Source: Niabella sp.
GTDB taxonomy: Bacteria; Bacteroidota; Bacteroidia; Chitinophagales; Chitinophagaceae
Length of the DNA: 64,000 bases
Direction: 5' to 3'
Assembly: GCA_027493055.1 (NCBI GenBank)
Contig: JAPUDO010000087.1
Location: 36,087-100,086, forward strand
The translations under genes and the position numbers were made by a program. The notes under the pieces are model-generated. The model did no database searches, had not been told where the DNA came from, and saw only the letters and a program-made list of their open reading frames with translations. Every line of letters begins with the position of its first letter. Within the stretch, counting starts at the first letter, position 1. Positions 20,603 to 24,851 of this stretch are shown one piece after another.

Positions 20603-22033
20603 ATGAAAAAAATTGTTCTTTTACTCAGCATTCTCAATGTATATTTCTTTTCTTATGCCCAAAACGGATGGCAGTCCGAAGGTTATACTTTTGCTGCCGG
20701 CACTCATACTGCAAACGGCATTCAATGGCCCGCAGGAAAAACTGTAACTATCGAGCCTGGTGCTATTGTAACTTTTACCAACGCCTCTTATGCCAGCGGT
20801 AACCTGGTGGTTAAAGGCGAGCTTACCATCAACTCCAGCGCTTCATCTTCCTTCCAGTTAGACGGGAACCTGATCCTTGCAGAAGGAGCTAAGCTTACCG
20901 TAAACGGTTCATTTAAAACCCAGACAACCGTTACTTACCCTCACAATGCTGCTGTGAAAATTACCGGCACTTATGAAATGAATGGCTGGTCTAATCCTGC
21001 GCCTGTAGTAACAATTGACCGTACAACATCCTTCCAGGTGGGCAAATTAGCCCTGAACCCGGGCCAGGCAGGCTTCATCGTCAGCGCCAATACTACTGTT
21101 TCAGCTACAGATGTGGTAACCAGCGGAAAACTTACCGTAAACGGAACCTTAAACGTTGCTAATACTATTTTCAGCAACGGAGGCAACTTTACATTGAATG
21201 AAGGAGGAACAGTAAATACCACAGACTTAAAATTTCAAAACCCTAATAATAGTATAAAAGGAGTGATCAATGCTTCGGAAAGCGTTGAATTTCACAACAA
21301 GCCCAACACCATGGCTTGCCCGGGAGCTATCCACACTAAAAATTTTTATAACTATAGTGAGAAGAACGTAATTGAAGGAAGCGGCTATATTGAAGTAACC
21401 GGAACATTTAAAAGCTCAAATGCGCTTACAGAAAGCCCCGATATTACTTTAAATGCTGCCGATGCAGGAAATGGTACCAATCCAAATAAAAATCCTGGAA
21501 AAGCTACTTTAGGCACTTCTTCTTCATGCGCCGGTACCGGCTCCGGAGCCAGGCAGGGTATAGAATCATTACCAGTTACTTTTGGTACCATCAGCCCCAG
21601 AATTGTTAACAACACCCTGGTAATTGACTGGTCTACTCTTTCTGAGACCAATAATAACCATTTTGATATTGAAATATCAAATGATGGAAGGAGCTTTACA
21701 AAGATTGGTCAGGTAAATAGCGCTGCTGTTGATGGCAACTCAAATGGGGTGCTGAACTATGAGTTTACCTATACTATTCCCGGCAAAGCAATAGCGGGCG
21801 GACTGGCACTTGTACTATTAGCCGGAGGAAGCATCATGTATAAAAGAAAGAACAGATATCCTGTAATGGTAATGCTTTCCGTTGTACTGATCAGCGCTAG
21901 CTTATTTTCCTGCAGCAAATCAGATTATGCTATAGAGGCATCAAATGATCAAAAAGTATTTGTACGTATTGTTCAGGTGGATATTGACGGCCAGACATCT
22001 GCATCGCAGGCAGTTAAGGCTACTATAAAATAA
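20603..22033 (+). CDS. Secreted beta-helix-like protein with split FN3/transmembrane-hairpin C-terminus
   Basis: 476 residues, unknown function. Signal peptide 1-19 (ends FFSYAQN). Residues about 20-300 are strand-rich, repeated, Gly/Asn/Thr-rich sequence typical of a parallel beta-helix (KTVTIEPGAIVTF, GELTINSS, GNLILAEGAKLTVNG). From L323 (LPVTFGTIS) an FN3-like domain of the kind found before type IX sorting domains begins (WSTLSETNNNHFDIEISNDGRSF). It is interrupted by helix 396-413, a basic loop KRKNR, and a second helix 421-436 ending in lipobox-like LFS-C437. The expected last FN3 strands (VFVRIVQVDIDGQTSAS) follow, and the protein stops. No type IX sorting domain is present. The same module ends the protein at 22764-24851. 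Confidence 0.75.
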   Translation: MKKIVLLLSILNVYFFSYAQNGWQSEGYTFAAGTHTANGIQWPAGKTVTIEPGAIVTFTNASYASGNLVVKGELTINSSASSSFQLDGNLILAEGAKLTVNGSFKTQTTVTYPHNAAVKITGTYEMNGWSNPAPVVTIDRTTSFQVGKLALNPGQAGFIVSANTTVSATDVVTSGKLTVNGTLNVANTIFSNGGNFTLNEGGTVNTTDLKFQNPNNSIKGVINASESVEFHNKPNTMACPGAIHTKNFYNYSEKNVIEGSGYIEVTGTFKSSNALTESPDITLNAADAGNGTNPNKNPGKATLGTSSSCAGTGSGARQGIESLPVTFGTISPRIVNNTLVIDWSTLSETNNNHFDIEISNDGRSFTKIGQVNSAAVDGNSNGVLNYEFTYTIPGKAIAGGLALVLLAGGSIMYKRKNRYPVMVMLSVVLISASLFSCSKSDYAIEASNDQKVFVRIVQVDIDGQTSASQAVKATIK

Positions 22034-22763: not shown

Positions 22764-24851
22764 CTATCTTTTCGATACCGTAATTATCTTTGAATAGCTT
22801 TTAGTGCCATCTTTATCCACCTGTACAATCCTGATAAATATTTTTTCATTACCACTTAGCCCATTCACACCTGTCTTATTACAGCTGAAAAATCCGAATA
22901 TAGTCACTACTATTGCGGCTGCTATCCACTTCCTGTTCTTTTTCGGAATAATCAACAGAACCGCAAACACGCCTAATCCCAGCATTATCCCCAAACCGGC
23001 ACCATTTATATCCAACGACAGCGAATAGTCGATAGGAACACTTGAGTTACCGCCCTCTGCCTTGGACCGTATTTTATTTATTGCATGAAAAGCTTTTCCA
23101 TCAGCAGAAGCTTCTATTATAAAATGATCGTTATTGGTTTCAGAAAGCGTTTGCCAACTTACAGACAAACCATCGCCCTGCCAGGTTACAGATACAGGAC
23201 CAAAGCTCACAGGCAATACCAGTTCCTGCGTCTGGGTTTTTACATAAAAACTGCTGAACCCCGTCACAGAAAAAGTCACCTCCCAGCGACTGGCATCGGC
23301 ATTCCAGAGGATACTGTTATCGTCGGGGTTAATATTTTGTACGGTGCCGCTACTGCTTCTTTTCTCTATTAACAAGTTGGCCTTCCGGGCCGTTATCGTT
23401 GCCGCATCATCTGCATCCGGTAATAGCAGCGCCGGCACGGGCGTTTGGGTGTTAAAGCTTTTAAATTCTTCATTGGTAAAATAAAGGGTAACTGTTCCTT
23501 GGGTAGTAGCTGCGTCTACAGCCGGCGTAATTTCATAGTATCGCTTTACGAATTTTGCCGGCTGACTGGTTATCACTTTCACCGCAGCCGTAACTTCCCC
23601 GGTATTGTTGTTAAGCTGAACGGCAGCGATAGGGTTACAACTGACATGAAAAATATAAGAATTATAACTAATGATCGTACCGACGGTTTCTATAGCATCT
23701 CCCGCAGCAATGCTGCTGTTGTATATGTTACTCAGAAGCGGTACCAGGGGATTGTAAGCGTATCCGTTACCCAGCTGCCCGCCACCACCAGAACCCCATC
23801 CCATTAGACTGCCCGTTGTTTTTTGAGCTAAACTAAAGTAATCACCAGTCGCAACTGTAAGCCAATCGGTTGCCGTGCCAATCTGTACCGGGCTATTTCT
23901 TTCGAGAGTTGACCCATCTCCTACCTCACCATACTTATTTTTACCCCAGCCCCATAGGGTGCCATCCGATCGAATAGCGATATTATGCATATAACCTGCT
24001 GAAACGAAACGCCAGTTAAATGCACCGATCTGAACCGGGCTACTCCTGTTAACATTGGTTCCATCTCCCAGCTGACTATCTCTGTTCTCACCCCAGGCCC
24101 ACATAGTTCCCCCTGTTTTTATGGCAACGGAGTAAACGGCTCCCGCAGTAATGGACTGCCAGTCAGTATCTGTGCCAATTTTAACCGGGCTCCTTCGGAT
24201 AAAGGAAGTGCCATCGCCTATTTGATTATAGACATTCTGCCCCCACGCCCACAAGCTACCATCGGTTTTTATTGCAAGCACGTGAAAAAATCCGGTTGCT
24301 ATAAGCTTCCAGTCAGTGTCTGCACCTACCTGAACAGGACTTAACTTGCTTGTAGTTGTCCCGTCGCCCAACTGGCTGTTGTTATTCCAGCCCCATGCCC
24401 AAAGTGTGCCATCCGTTTTTAAAGCAACAGAGAACTCATATCCCGCTGCTACCGAATGCCAGTCAGCAGACGTACCGATTTGTACCGGACTTTTTTTAGC
24501 AACCGATGTCCCATCACCCAGCTGGCCGTTGTTATTGGCCCCCCATGCCCAAAGTGTGCCATCTGACCTTACAGCTATGGTATGAGACGATCCTACTGCT
24601 ATTGTTCTCCAGCTGGCACCTGCACTTATTGCTACCGGGATCTTGCGGTTAACGGTGGTGCCGTCACCTAACTGACCACTACGATTATAGCCCCACGCGA
24701 ACAGGCTCCCGTCTTGCTTAATACCAAATGTAGATTGACCCAATGAACCGGAAACCACTGTTTTAAAATATTGGCATTGTGCACGGAGCGTCCCCGGGTT
24801 CCATAGCAGCAATAATGTTTGAAGGGCAATGAGCCAGATACAACGTTTCAT
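22764..24851 (-). CDS. Secreted RCC1-repeat protein with split FN3/transmembrane-hairpin C-terminus
   Basis: 695 residues. Signal peptide 1-24 (ends TLRAQ). Seven RCC1-type repeats of about 51 residues follow (about 40-390; recurring QLGDGT..(K/S)SPV and GTLWAWG), predicting a seven-bladed propeller. A strand-rich linker includes RYYEITPAVDAATTQGTVTLYF. From residue 546 (LPVSFGPVSV) it carries the same C-terminal module as the neighbour at 20603: FN3-like WQTLSETNNDHFIIEASADGK, helix about 617-635, basic loop PKKNRK, helix 642-656 ending GFFS-C657, then IFIRIVQVDKDGTKSYS. Function unknown; RCC1 domains usually bind proteins. The two genes converge across a 730-bp gap. Confidence 0.8.
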   Translation of the reverse strand: MKRCIWLIALQTLLLLWNPGTLRAQCQYFKTVVSGSLGQSTFGIKQDGSLFAWGYNRSGQLGDGTTVNRKIPVAISAGASWRTIAVGSSHTIAVRSDGTLWAWGANNNGQLGDGTSVAKKSPVQIGTSADWHSVAAGYEFSVALKTDGTLWAWGWNNNSQLGDGTTTSKLSPVQVGADTDWKLIATGFFHVLAIKTDGSLWAWGQNVYNQIGDGTSFIRRSPVKIGTDTDWQSITAGAVYSVAIKTGGTMWAWGENRDSQLGDGTNVNRSSPVQIGAFNWRFVSAGYMHNIAIRSDGTLWGWGKNKYGEVGDGSTLERNSPVQIGTATDWLTVATGDYFSLAQKTTGSLMGWGSGGGGQLGNGYAYNPLVPLLSNIYNSSIAAGDAIETVGTIISYNSYIFHVSCNPIAAVQLNNNTGEVTAAVKVITSQPAKFVKRYYEITPAVDAATTQGTVTLYFTNEEFKSFNTQTPVPALLLPDADDAATITARKANLLIEKRSSSGTVQNINPDDNSILWNADASRWEVTFSVTGFSSFYVKTQTQELVLPVSFGPVSVTWQGDGLSVSWQTLSETNNDHFIIEASADGKAFHAINKIRSKAEGGNSSVPIDYSLSLDINGAGLGIMLGLGVFAVLLIIPKKNRKWIAAAIVVTIFGFFSCNKTGVNGLSGNEKIFIRIVQVDKDGTKSYSKIITVSKR

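Follow-up and report, generated by a model that had tools for sequence, protein, structure and literature searches.

The 64,000-nucleotide stretch of DNA analyzed here (hereafter the window) comes from Niabella, a genus of soil bacteria, and encodes at positions 20603..22033 a secreted protein, gene A, whose C-terminus carries an unusual module: an FN3-like domain appears to be split by two hydrophobic helices and an internal lipobox, beyond which its last strands resume. The observation is confirmed as one of a family-wide module, occurring far beyond chance, and dozens of different Niabella secreted proteins appear from their sequences to end with it. The module is probably a C-terminal two-chain lipid anchor, in which the protein would be exported through Sec, the internal signal processed by Lgt and LspA, and the FN3 domain completed non-covalently.

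Architecture and conservation of the module

The original prediction described the end of gene A as FN3-like strands followed by a helix, the basic loop KRKNR, a second helix, the lipobox LFS-C437, a final strand pair, and the stop codon. This anatomy is accurate, the open reading frame (ORF) and the AlphaFold2 model agreeing on it. The full-length model (25 aligned rows) places FN3-like strands at residues 326–391, further strands past the hairpin at 453–460 and 465–467, and many short strands at ~28–285, which we read as solenoid-like. Since an hmmscan of gene A against NCBIfam returned no family, and thus no match to the type IX sorting domain TIGR04183, the predicted absence of a type IX tail also holds. 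The features of gene A are as follows:

20603..22033, + strand: gene A, encoding a secreted, predicted beta-solenoid protein that ends in the split-FN3 lipo-hairpin module (ORF of 476 residues; AlphaFold2)
20603..20659, + strand: N-terminal Sec/signal peptidase I (SPase I) signal peptide MKKIVLLLSILNVYFFSYA, followed by Q (cut site placed by eye)
20684..21457, + strand: ectodomain, residues 28–285, predicted all-strand (beta-solenoid-like; AlphaFold2), homologous along its length to gene 1 of genus g9 (see below)
21569..21778, + strand: FN3-like strands A–E, residues 323–392 (AlphaFold2)
21788..21838, + strand: helix 1 (first transmembrane helix), residues 396–412, with a conserved Gly (AlphaFold2)
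21842..21856, + strand: basic loop KRKNR, residues 414–418, putative n-region of the internal signal (sequence)
21854..21907, + strand: helix 2 (second transmembrane helix), residues 418–435, putative h-region of the internal lipoprotein signal (AlphaFold2)
21902..21913, + strand: lipobox L-F-S-C437, Cys codon 21911–21913 (conservation)
21914..21958, + strand: tether, residues 438–452, no secondary structure predicted (AlphaFold2)
21959..22030, + strand: FN3-like strands F–G and C-terminal end, residues 453–476 (AlphaFold2)

Among 71 aligned modules, the residue preceding the Cys (−1) is Ser in 46, Gly in 14, and Ala in nine (one of these three in 69/71), and the +3 residue is Lys in 65, Arg in five, and Asp in one. 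Because these 71 modules had been picked by a pattern that itself contained the Cys, the profile was rebuilt with the Cys column masked. On the collected loci, this profile returned 145 matches, comprising seven continuous FN3-like domains and 138 forms with a hairpin or signal peptide; the Cys is present in all 138 hairpin or stand-alone forms (shifted by one column in two), the profile's own 46 rows being among the sequences open to detection. A chance lipobox is thereby ruled out. Both helices and the usual F-strand motif occur in 117 of the 138, the rest being partial, variant, or stand-alone; three are fragments of other rows, and none is an unrelated lipoprotein.

The Cys lies 16–19 residues from the F-strand Arg/Gln in the 117 fused modules; 13 further forms, partial or stand-alone, give 17–18 residues within a search window of 11–24. 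The hairpin is free of Asp and Glu in 113/117 modules, and the best seven-residue loop window holds at least three Lys or Arg residues, again in 113/117. Helix 1 contains a Gly conserved in 61/70 modules, and the module end, R-I-x-Q-V-D-K-D-G, is nearly invariant among the 71 aligned; the modules are otherwise very diverse, with 59/71 hairpin-to-end sequences surviving a 55% identity filter. The module thus shares the n-region, h-region, small −1 residue, and invariant Cys of Lgt/LspA substrates, though in the fused modules the signal is internal rather than N-terminal as in those substrates; it is N-terminal in six stand-alone genes of genus g9. Ordinary lipoproteins from the same loci have a +3 Lys (CxK) in 19 of 35 cases; their −1 residue was fixed to Ser, Gly, or Ala by the search pattern, and they provide no control for that position. 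The suggestion that helix 2 is a lipoprotein signal in mid-protein is supported by the Cys, the small −1 residue, and the +3 Lys, as well as by the signal of the stand-alone g9 lipoprotein.

Structure prediction with the hairpin in place, one of the checks first proposed for this module, gave confident strands on both sides of it. In the AlphaFold2 model of the module (pTM 0.68), pLDDT is 94–97 for strands A–E, ~68–74 for the helices, 53 for the block after the lipobox, and 84–95 for the F–G blocks; the full-length gene A model shows the same elements. The packing of F–G on A–E is read from the homologous, uninterrupted domains of FN3 type together with Foldseek alignments, the model supplying confidence and secondary structure only. 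Foldseek matched Ihog FN3 domains weakly (E 0.004–0.02, over 155–160 columns), and its top hit, a potassium channel (2.3e-3), was probably drawn by the hairpin. Pfam and NCBIfam reported no FN3 model for the module, only weak F5/8-type C matches; FN3 is therefore a structural assignment.

Uninterrupted homologues, which the original prediction had named as evidence that would count against it, do exist: continuous FN3-like domains without a hydrophobic insert were found at 19 loci outside Niabella, and these run on into further C-terminal sequence. In a tree built on the joined pieces, with few columns and with the split rows as long branches, a branch with support 99/93 separates 18 continuous domains from every fused or split form. 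Given this separation and the further C-terminal sequence, the continuous domains are read as relatives of the type IX kind. The original interpretation is supported overall, independent evidence having accrued to both parts of its main hypothesis. The grouping of the split rows with one fused row (L035) in this tree is probably an artefact.

The two-gene form in genus g9

The best evidence for a split-FN3 anchor, and a form that from its sequence seems to fit such an anchor well, is a two-gene version found in another genus, g9. In two g9 genomes, the match to the hairpin-to-end profile began at helix 2 and lay in short frames. Their loci hold two adjacent genes, of which gene 1 encodes an exported homologue of gene A whose chain stops immediately past FN3 strand E; gene 2, 3–27 nucleotides further on, encodes an ordinary lipoprotein of 57–64 residues, with signal, lipobox, tether, and F–G strands. 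At L164 and L165, the gap is 26–27 nucleotides, gene 2 has 63–64 residues, and the lipobox is LSSC; a distant g9 pair (L188) shows 40% identity and a gap of 3 nucleotides. Most of gene 1 has a homologous counterpart in gene A (blastp against a two-sequence database, E 2e-18 and 2e-16), and the aligned gene 1 sequence finishes at the very point at which gene A passes into helix 1. The whole of gene 2, from first residue to last, aligns with the portion of the module that starts at the basic loop. The two-gene form is without helix 1.

A search of 119 relatives of one g9 genome (G024) found strong gene 1 orthologues in six of the 15 g9 genomes listed, and gene 2 directly follows gene 1 in all six. 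That the F–G piece is separable from the rest of the domain, as the original prediction supposed, is borne out here, given that gene 1 ends past strand E and the next gene supplies F–G in 6/6 genomes. A gene 2 profile run over 80 genomes recovered the same six g9 genomes together with five fused carriers, and no match in G007 and G016, two Niabella genomes that lack the module. Between G024 and G267, gene 2 differs by 27 synonymous and five non-synonymous codons of 63, and looks from these sequences to be under purifying selection. An FN3 domain lacking strands F and G should not fold alone; the most natural reading of the g9 pair is therefore a single domain assembled from two chains. One candidate for a further stand-alone form (L208) was rejected as an ordinary lipoprotein without F–G strands.

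Distribution, cargo, and secretion context

A profile search for the same split, as the original prediction had proposed, finds the module in most of the genus and in other genera. With a profile of 21 modules, 15 of 17 Niabella genomes carry 2–63 matches each at E ≤ 0.001, the best match per carrying genome being 6e-51 or better, as compared with 1.6e-18 for the best in any other genus; G007 and G016 have no match at this threshold. Hairpin modules in a scan of named records were found in Niabella records and in the metagenome-assembled genome (MAG) ACE_NR_BACT11 (L086), which is of the same genus, as well as in two Ferruginibacter MAGs (L061, L069) and the Chitinophagaceae MAG SJ21 (L070). 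Across the family, 13 of 394 genomes match a hairpin-to-end profile at E ≤ 1e-8 (nine of the genus, two other genomes with fused modules, and two of g9); in a sample of the phylum, 3/395 match at E ≤ 1e-7 (two of the genus, one of g9). These counts may omit weak or additional copies, as the genus scan scored at most 64 candidates per genome, the family and phylum scans 13 per genome, and the named-record scan the best 80 of 115 found with one peptide pattern.

The proteins bearing the module appear to be exported by ordinary SPase I signal peptides and vary in their ectodomains. Of 55 proteins, 38 fit a pattern of a SPase I signal followed by Gln, 35 of these with a clear hydrophobic core, though some single calls (e.g., L056) are doubtful; none was classed as an N-terminal lipoprotein, and most of the other 17 have broken frames or signals beyond the reach of the pattern. 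A Gln after the SPase I signal is the expectation of the Bacteroidetes Q-rule (PMC5837995). In Pfam searches, the ectodomains of 41 full proteins included RCC1, NHL, DUF5122 and SBBP propellers, FG-GAP, DUF285, an M43 metalloprotease, GSDH, and others, with no family in more than four of the 41. Given this variety of ectodomains, the module behaves as a tag. One module protein (L006) carries PARCEL repeats (TIGR02167, 130.5 bits against a cut-off of 30; NCBIfam).

The genus in which the module abounds differs from its relatives in SprA and in type IX tails. SprA, the type IX translocon and the sole part of that machine searched, is over cut-off in 0/17 genomes of the genus (seven with weak, 17–19-bit matches) as compared with 16/16 other relatives, and TIGR04183 tails number 0–2 per genome in the genus as compared with 52 to at least 125 elsewhere. 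In Niabella, a genus without SprA over cut-off, the module seems to take the place of type IX tails, the relationship between SprA absence and module abundance being a correlation in one genus. LspA was found in genome G000.

Proposed mechanism, alternatives, and related systems

The steps by which such an anchor would form can be set out as follows. The analysis itself shows the anatomy and conservation of the module, its strands and helices as predicted, the two-gene form, and the absence of SprA; that the Cys is lipidated and the chain cut, that the pieces assemble without a covalent link, that helix 1 is removed, and which membrane is the final one are all inferred. Sec would export the protein via its ordinary SPase I signal peptide until helix 1 stops transfer (N-out, C-in), whereupon the basic loop and helix 2 would serve as a further lipoprotein signal, this one internal (N-in, C-out). 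Lgt would lipidate the invariant Cys and LspA would cut before it, yielding a peptide of ~40 residues that begins with a diacylglyceryl-Cys and carries FN3 strands F–G. By completing the sandwich of strands A–E, this peptide would hold the ectodomain non-covalently to the lipid anchor. An internal lipoprotein signal works only once the preceding chain is back on the cytoplasmic side, which makes sense of helix 1; it may be a topology device that lets both pieces be made as one chain, since the two-gene relative needs none and has none. If helix 1 were kept, the ectodomain would be tied to the inner membrane; if it were cut, the lipid alone would hold the ectodomain, and to reach the outer membrane the ectodomain would have to lose helix 1 through a second cut. 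We lean somewhat toward the more general proposition that an internal lipoprotein signal splits a domain into two chains, the short, lipid-bearing one snapping into the long one, whether encoded by one gene or two, that this arrangement has spread to dozens of different cargoes in a genus lacking the type IX translocon, and that the general lipoprotein enzymes plus one further cut suffice.

Several observations weigh against a cleaved, two-chain anchor standing in for type IX tails. Foldseek found no PDB hit for the module model with E ≤ 0.001, and structure prediction cannot, as a modeling approach, tell a cut from an uncut hairpin. An outer-membrane location of the fused form needs a second cut in helix 1, and neither rhomboids, exosortases, nor LspA copies pointed to a protease for it. 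Twelve of the 17 Niabella genomes keep 1–2 TIGR04183 matches, G007 and G016 lack both SprA over cut-off and the module, and the carriers tested outside the genus have SprA in 7/7 cases (four further g9 carriers lay outside the sample). Loss of the type IX secretion system (T9SS) therefore did not create the module, and so it either emerged alongside a functioning type IX system or was taken up by genomes that have one, and became abundant where the system is missing.

Candidate partners and signals were likewise unhelpful to this interpretation. A dedicated second LspA was rejected, LspA not being duplicated in step with the module (one match in 11 of the 15 module-bearing genomes, two in each of the module-less G007 and G016). 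An exosortase, the partner of PEP-CTERM tails, was rejected, with PF09721 over cut-off in 0/17 genus genomes and one match below it in G011, and a rhomboid partner was uninformative, with PF01694 in 33/33 genomes and 4–7 matches per genus genome. One module gene (G001:C4:163799-165774) adjoins two rhomboid matches, possibly by chance and possibly as a candidate for the helix 1 protease. The surface lipoproteins of Bacteroidetes bear the export signal K-(D/E)2, a motif known from Capnocytophaga (PMC5080379). Like them, the modules have Lys at +3 (108/117), and at least one acidic residue follows at +4 to +6 in 91/117; the strict motif at +3 to +5 is met in only 2/117, such that surface export was rejected as the reason for the +3 Lys, and the module signal is internal whereas that of the surface lipoproteins is N-terminal.

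Among the alternatives, an uncut membrane hairpin, in which the two helices form a long E–F loop tying the FN3 domain to the inner membrane and the Cys may be lipidated with the chain left whole, is unlikely. The persistence of predicted strands on either side of an intact hairpin and the Gly of helix 1, as helix packing might need, are consistent with it; yet it leaves aside a Cys that is found, with a lipobox and mostly as CxK, in 138/138 forms, and the g9 form consists of two separate chains with no helix 1. That same Gly, together with the many varied clients and the 4–7 rhomboid matches in each genus genome, could instead point to a dedicated sorting enzyme (cf. MYXO-CTERM, GlyGly-CTERM) recognizing helix 1 or the Cys, with Lgt and LspA not the processing pair. 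We regard this as decidedly improbable: the module has both the orientation and the lipobox of a lipoprotein signal, gene 2 on its own resembles an ordinary lipoprotein, and exosortase never exceeds cut-off in the genus, its one lower match being in G011.

Separate production of the lipoprotein half from an internal translation start near the loop has a precedent in the two-gene form, which does so with a gene of its own, and an in-frame ATG lies 13–34 codons before the Cys in 41/71 modules (ATG, GTG, or TTG in 65/71). However, ATG is absent there in 30/71, the alignment shows no conserved Met position, helices rich in Val and Leu would contain GTG and TTG codons by chance, and the frame is open through the hairpin in intact copies; we accordingly give this explanation very little weight. 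It is barely credible that these are decayed type IX proteins, relics carrying a neutral insertion after loss of the secretion system. While the want of SprA over cut-off in all 17 genus genomes would agree with decay, the Cys and F-strand residues are kept across very diverse copies, a conservation that already contradicts it, and the module also occurs in SprA-bearing genomes.

The NCBIfam (release 20.0) model NF058595, "invert_tail" (lipo-invert putative C-terminal anchoring domain-containing protein), resembles the module as far as its name and profile coordinates allow a comparison: its apparent order is a lead-in, a hairpin, a lipobox region near position 73 of 113, and ~40 more residues. 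That the model exists means that someone has recognized an anchor of this general layout. Eleven of 72 modules match it at E ≤ 0.01, the best at E 8.7e-5 (~23 bits, a value derived from other rows); of 30 proteins or modules scanned singly, nine matched at E ≤ 1, and none of the modules scored reached the 37-bit cut-off, the best single score being 18.0. These matches span positions 6–75 of the 113, ending at 73–75, and the F–G half is not shared at that level. A literature search found no paper under the name lipo-invert, and searches combining Niabella with type IX secretion or lipoproteins, or concerned with modules of a related kind, found none whose title or abstract opening describes such a module.

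The nearest studied system in spirit is MYXO-CTERM (PMC11980579), which is likewise a C-terminal tag on dozens of Sec-exported proteins, with an invariant Cys thought to be lipidated and a transmembrane helix with a basic cytoplasmic end. Its Cys, however, precedes a single terminal transmembrane helix without a defined lipobox, whereas that of the module follows helix 2 within one; and its tail is removed by myxosortase, while the tail of the module is part of a domain. L086 scores 13.4 with TIGR03901 (MYXO-CTERM), below the cut-off of 20. For GlyGly-CTERM, the subject of PMC13393428, L007 scores 13 with TIGR03867 against a cut-off of 19.7, and rhomboid counts are not diagnostic.

Cargo of the T9SS has a homologous FN3-like domain, and the module proteins share clients with it, such as propellers, RCC1, NHL, and metalloprotease, which are common among T9SS cargo. 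T9SS cargo has the TIGR04183 sorting domain; the module proteins have instead a hairpin in the E–F loop, in a genus without SprA over cut-off. Two engineered FN3 fragments reportedly assemble with high affinity (work of Dutta et al. in 2005). That complementation was engineered, whereas the module would be a naturally occurring case, coupled to a lipid anchor. Three features appear to be new, namely the splitting of an FN3-type domain, its two-gene version, and the association with SprA absence; the kind itself appears barely described.

If this interpretation is true, a domain of two chains and a lipid anchor without a covalent link both arise from a signal peptide located inside a protein, and prediction tools restricted to N-termini would overlook such anchors. 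It would also give a testable account of how a SprA-less genus of Bacteroidota may display its secreted proteins, including large ones of the propeller type. For tests of assembly, the fused form and the two-gene form are matched reagents, and G007 and G016 are natural module-minus relatives within the same genus.

A second copy of the module lies close to gene A in the window, on the opposite strand:

22764..24851, − strand: gene B, RCC1-repeat secreted protein of 695 residues with the same C-terminal module
22767..23246, − strand: copy B of the module, gene B residues 536–695 (Cys657 codon 22881–22883, counted by hand)

For gene B, hmmscan against NCBIfam did not report a TIGR04183 sorting domain. 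Searching the window's own genome with the module gave 26 matches, of which 25 are modules and one (L026) is an ordinary lipoprotein. Two of its modules, L025 (1453–1677, 75 residues) and L024 (1483–1905, 141 residues), lie in short frames with no intact in-frame ectodomain. Modules also occur in broken frames in Niabella hibiscisoli, N. defluvii, and N. ginsengisoli (L076, L078, L080, L081, L082), these probably reflecting assembly indels or pseudogenes. Elsewhere, module genes cluster within a few kilobases, as if tandem-amplified (G001:C5:70173-77418, G012:C3:688608-697250, and locus L037).
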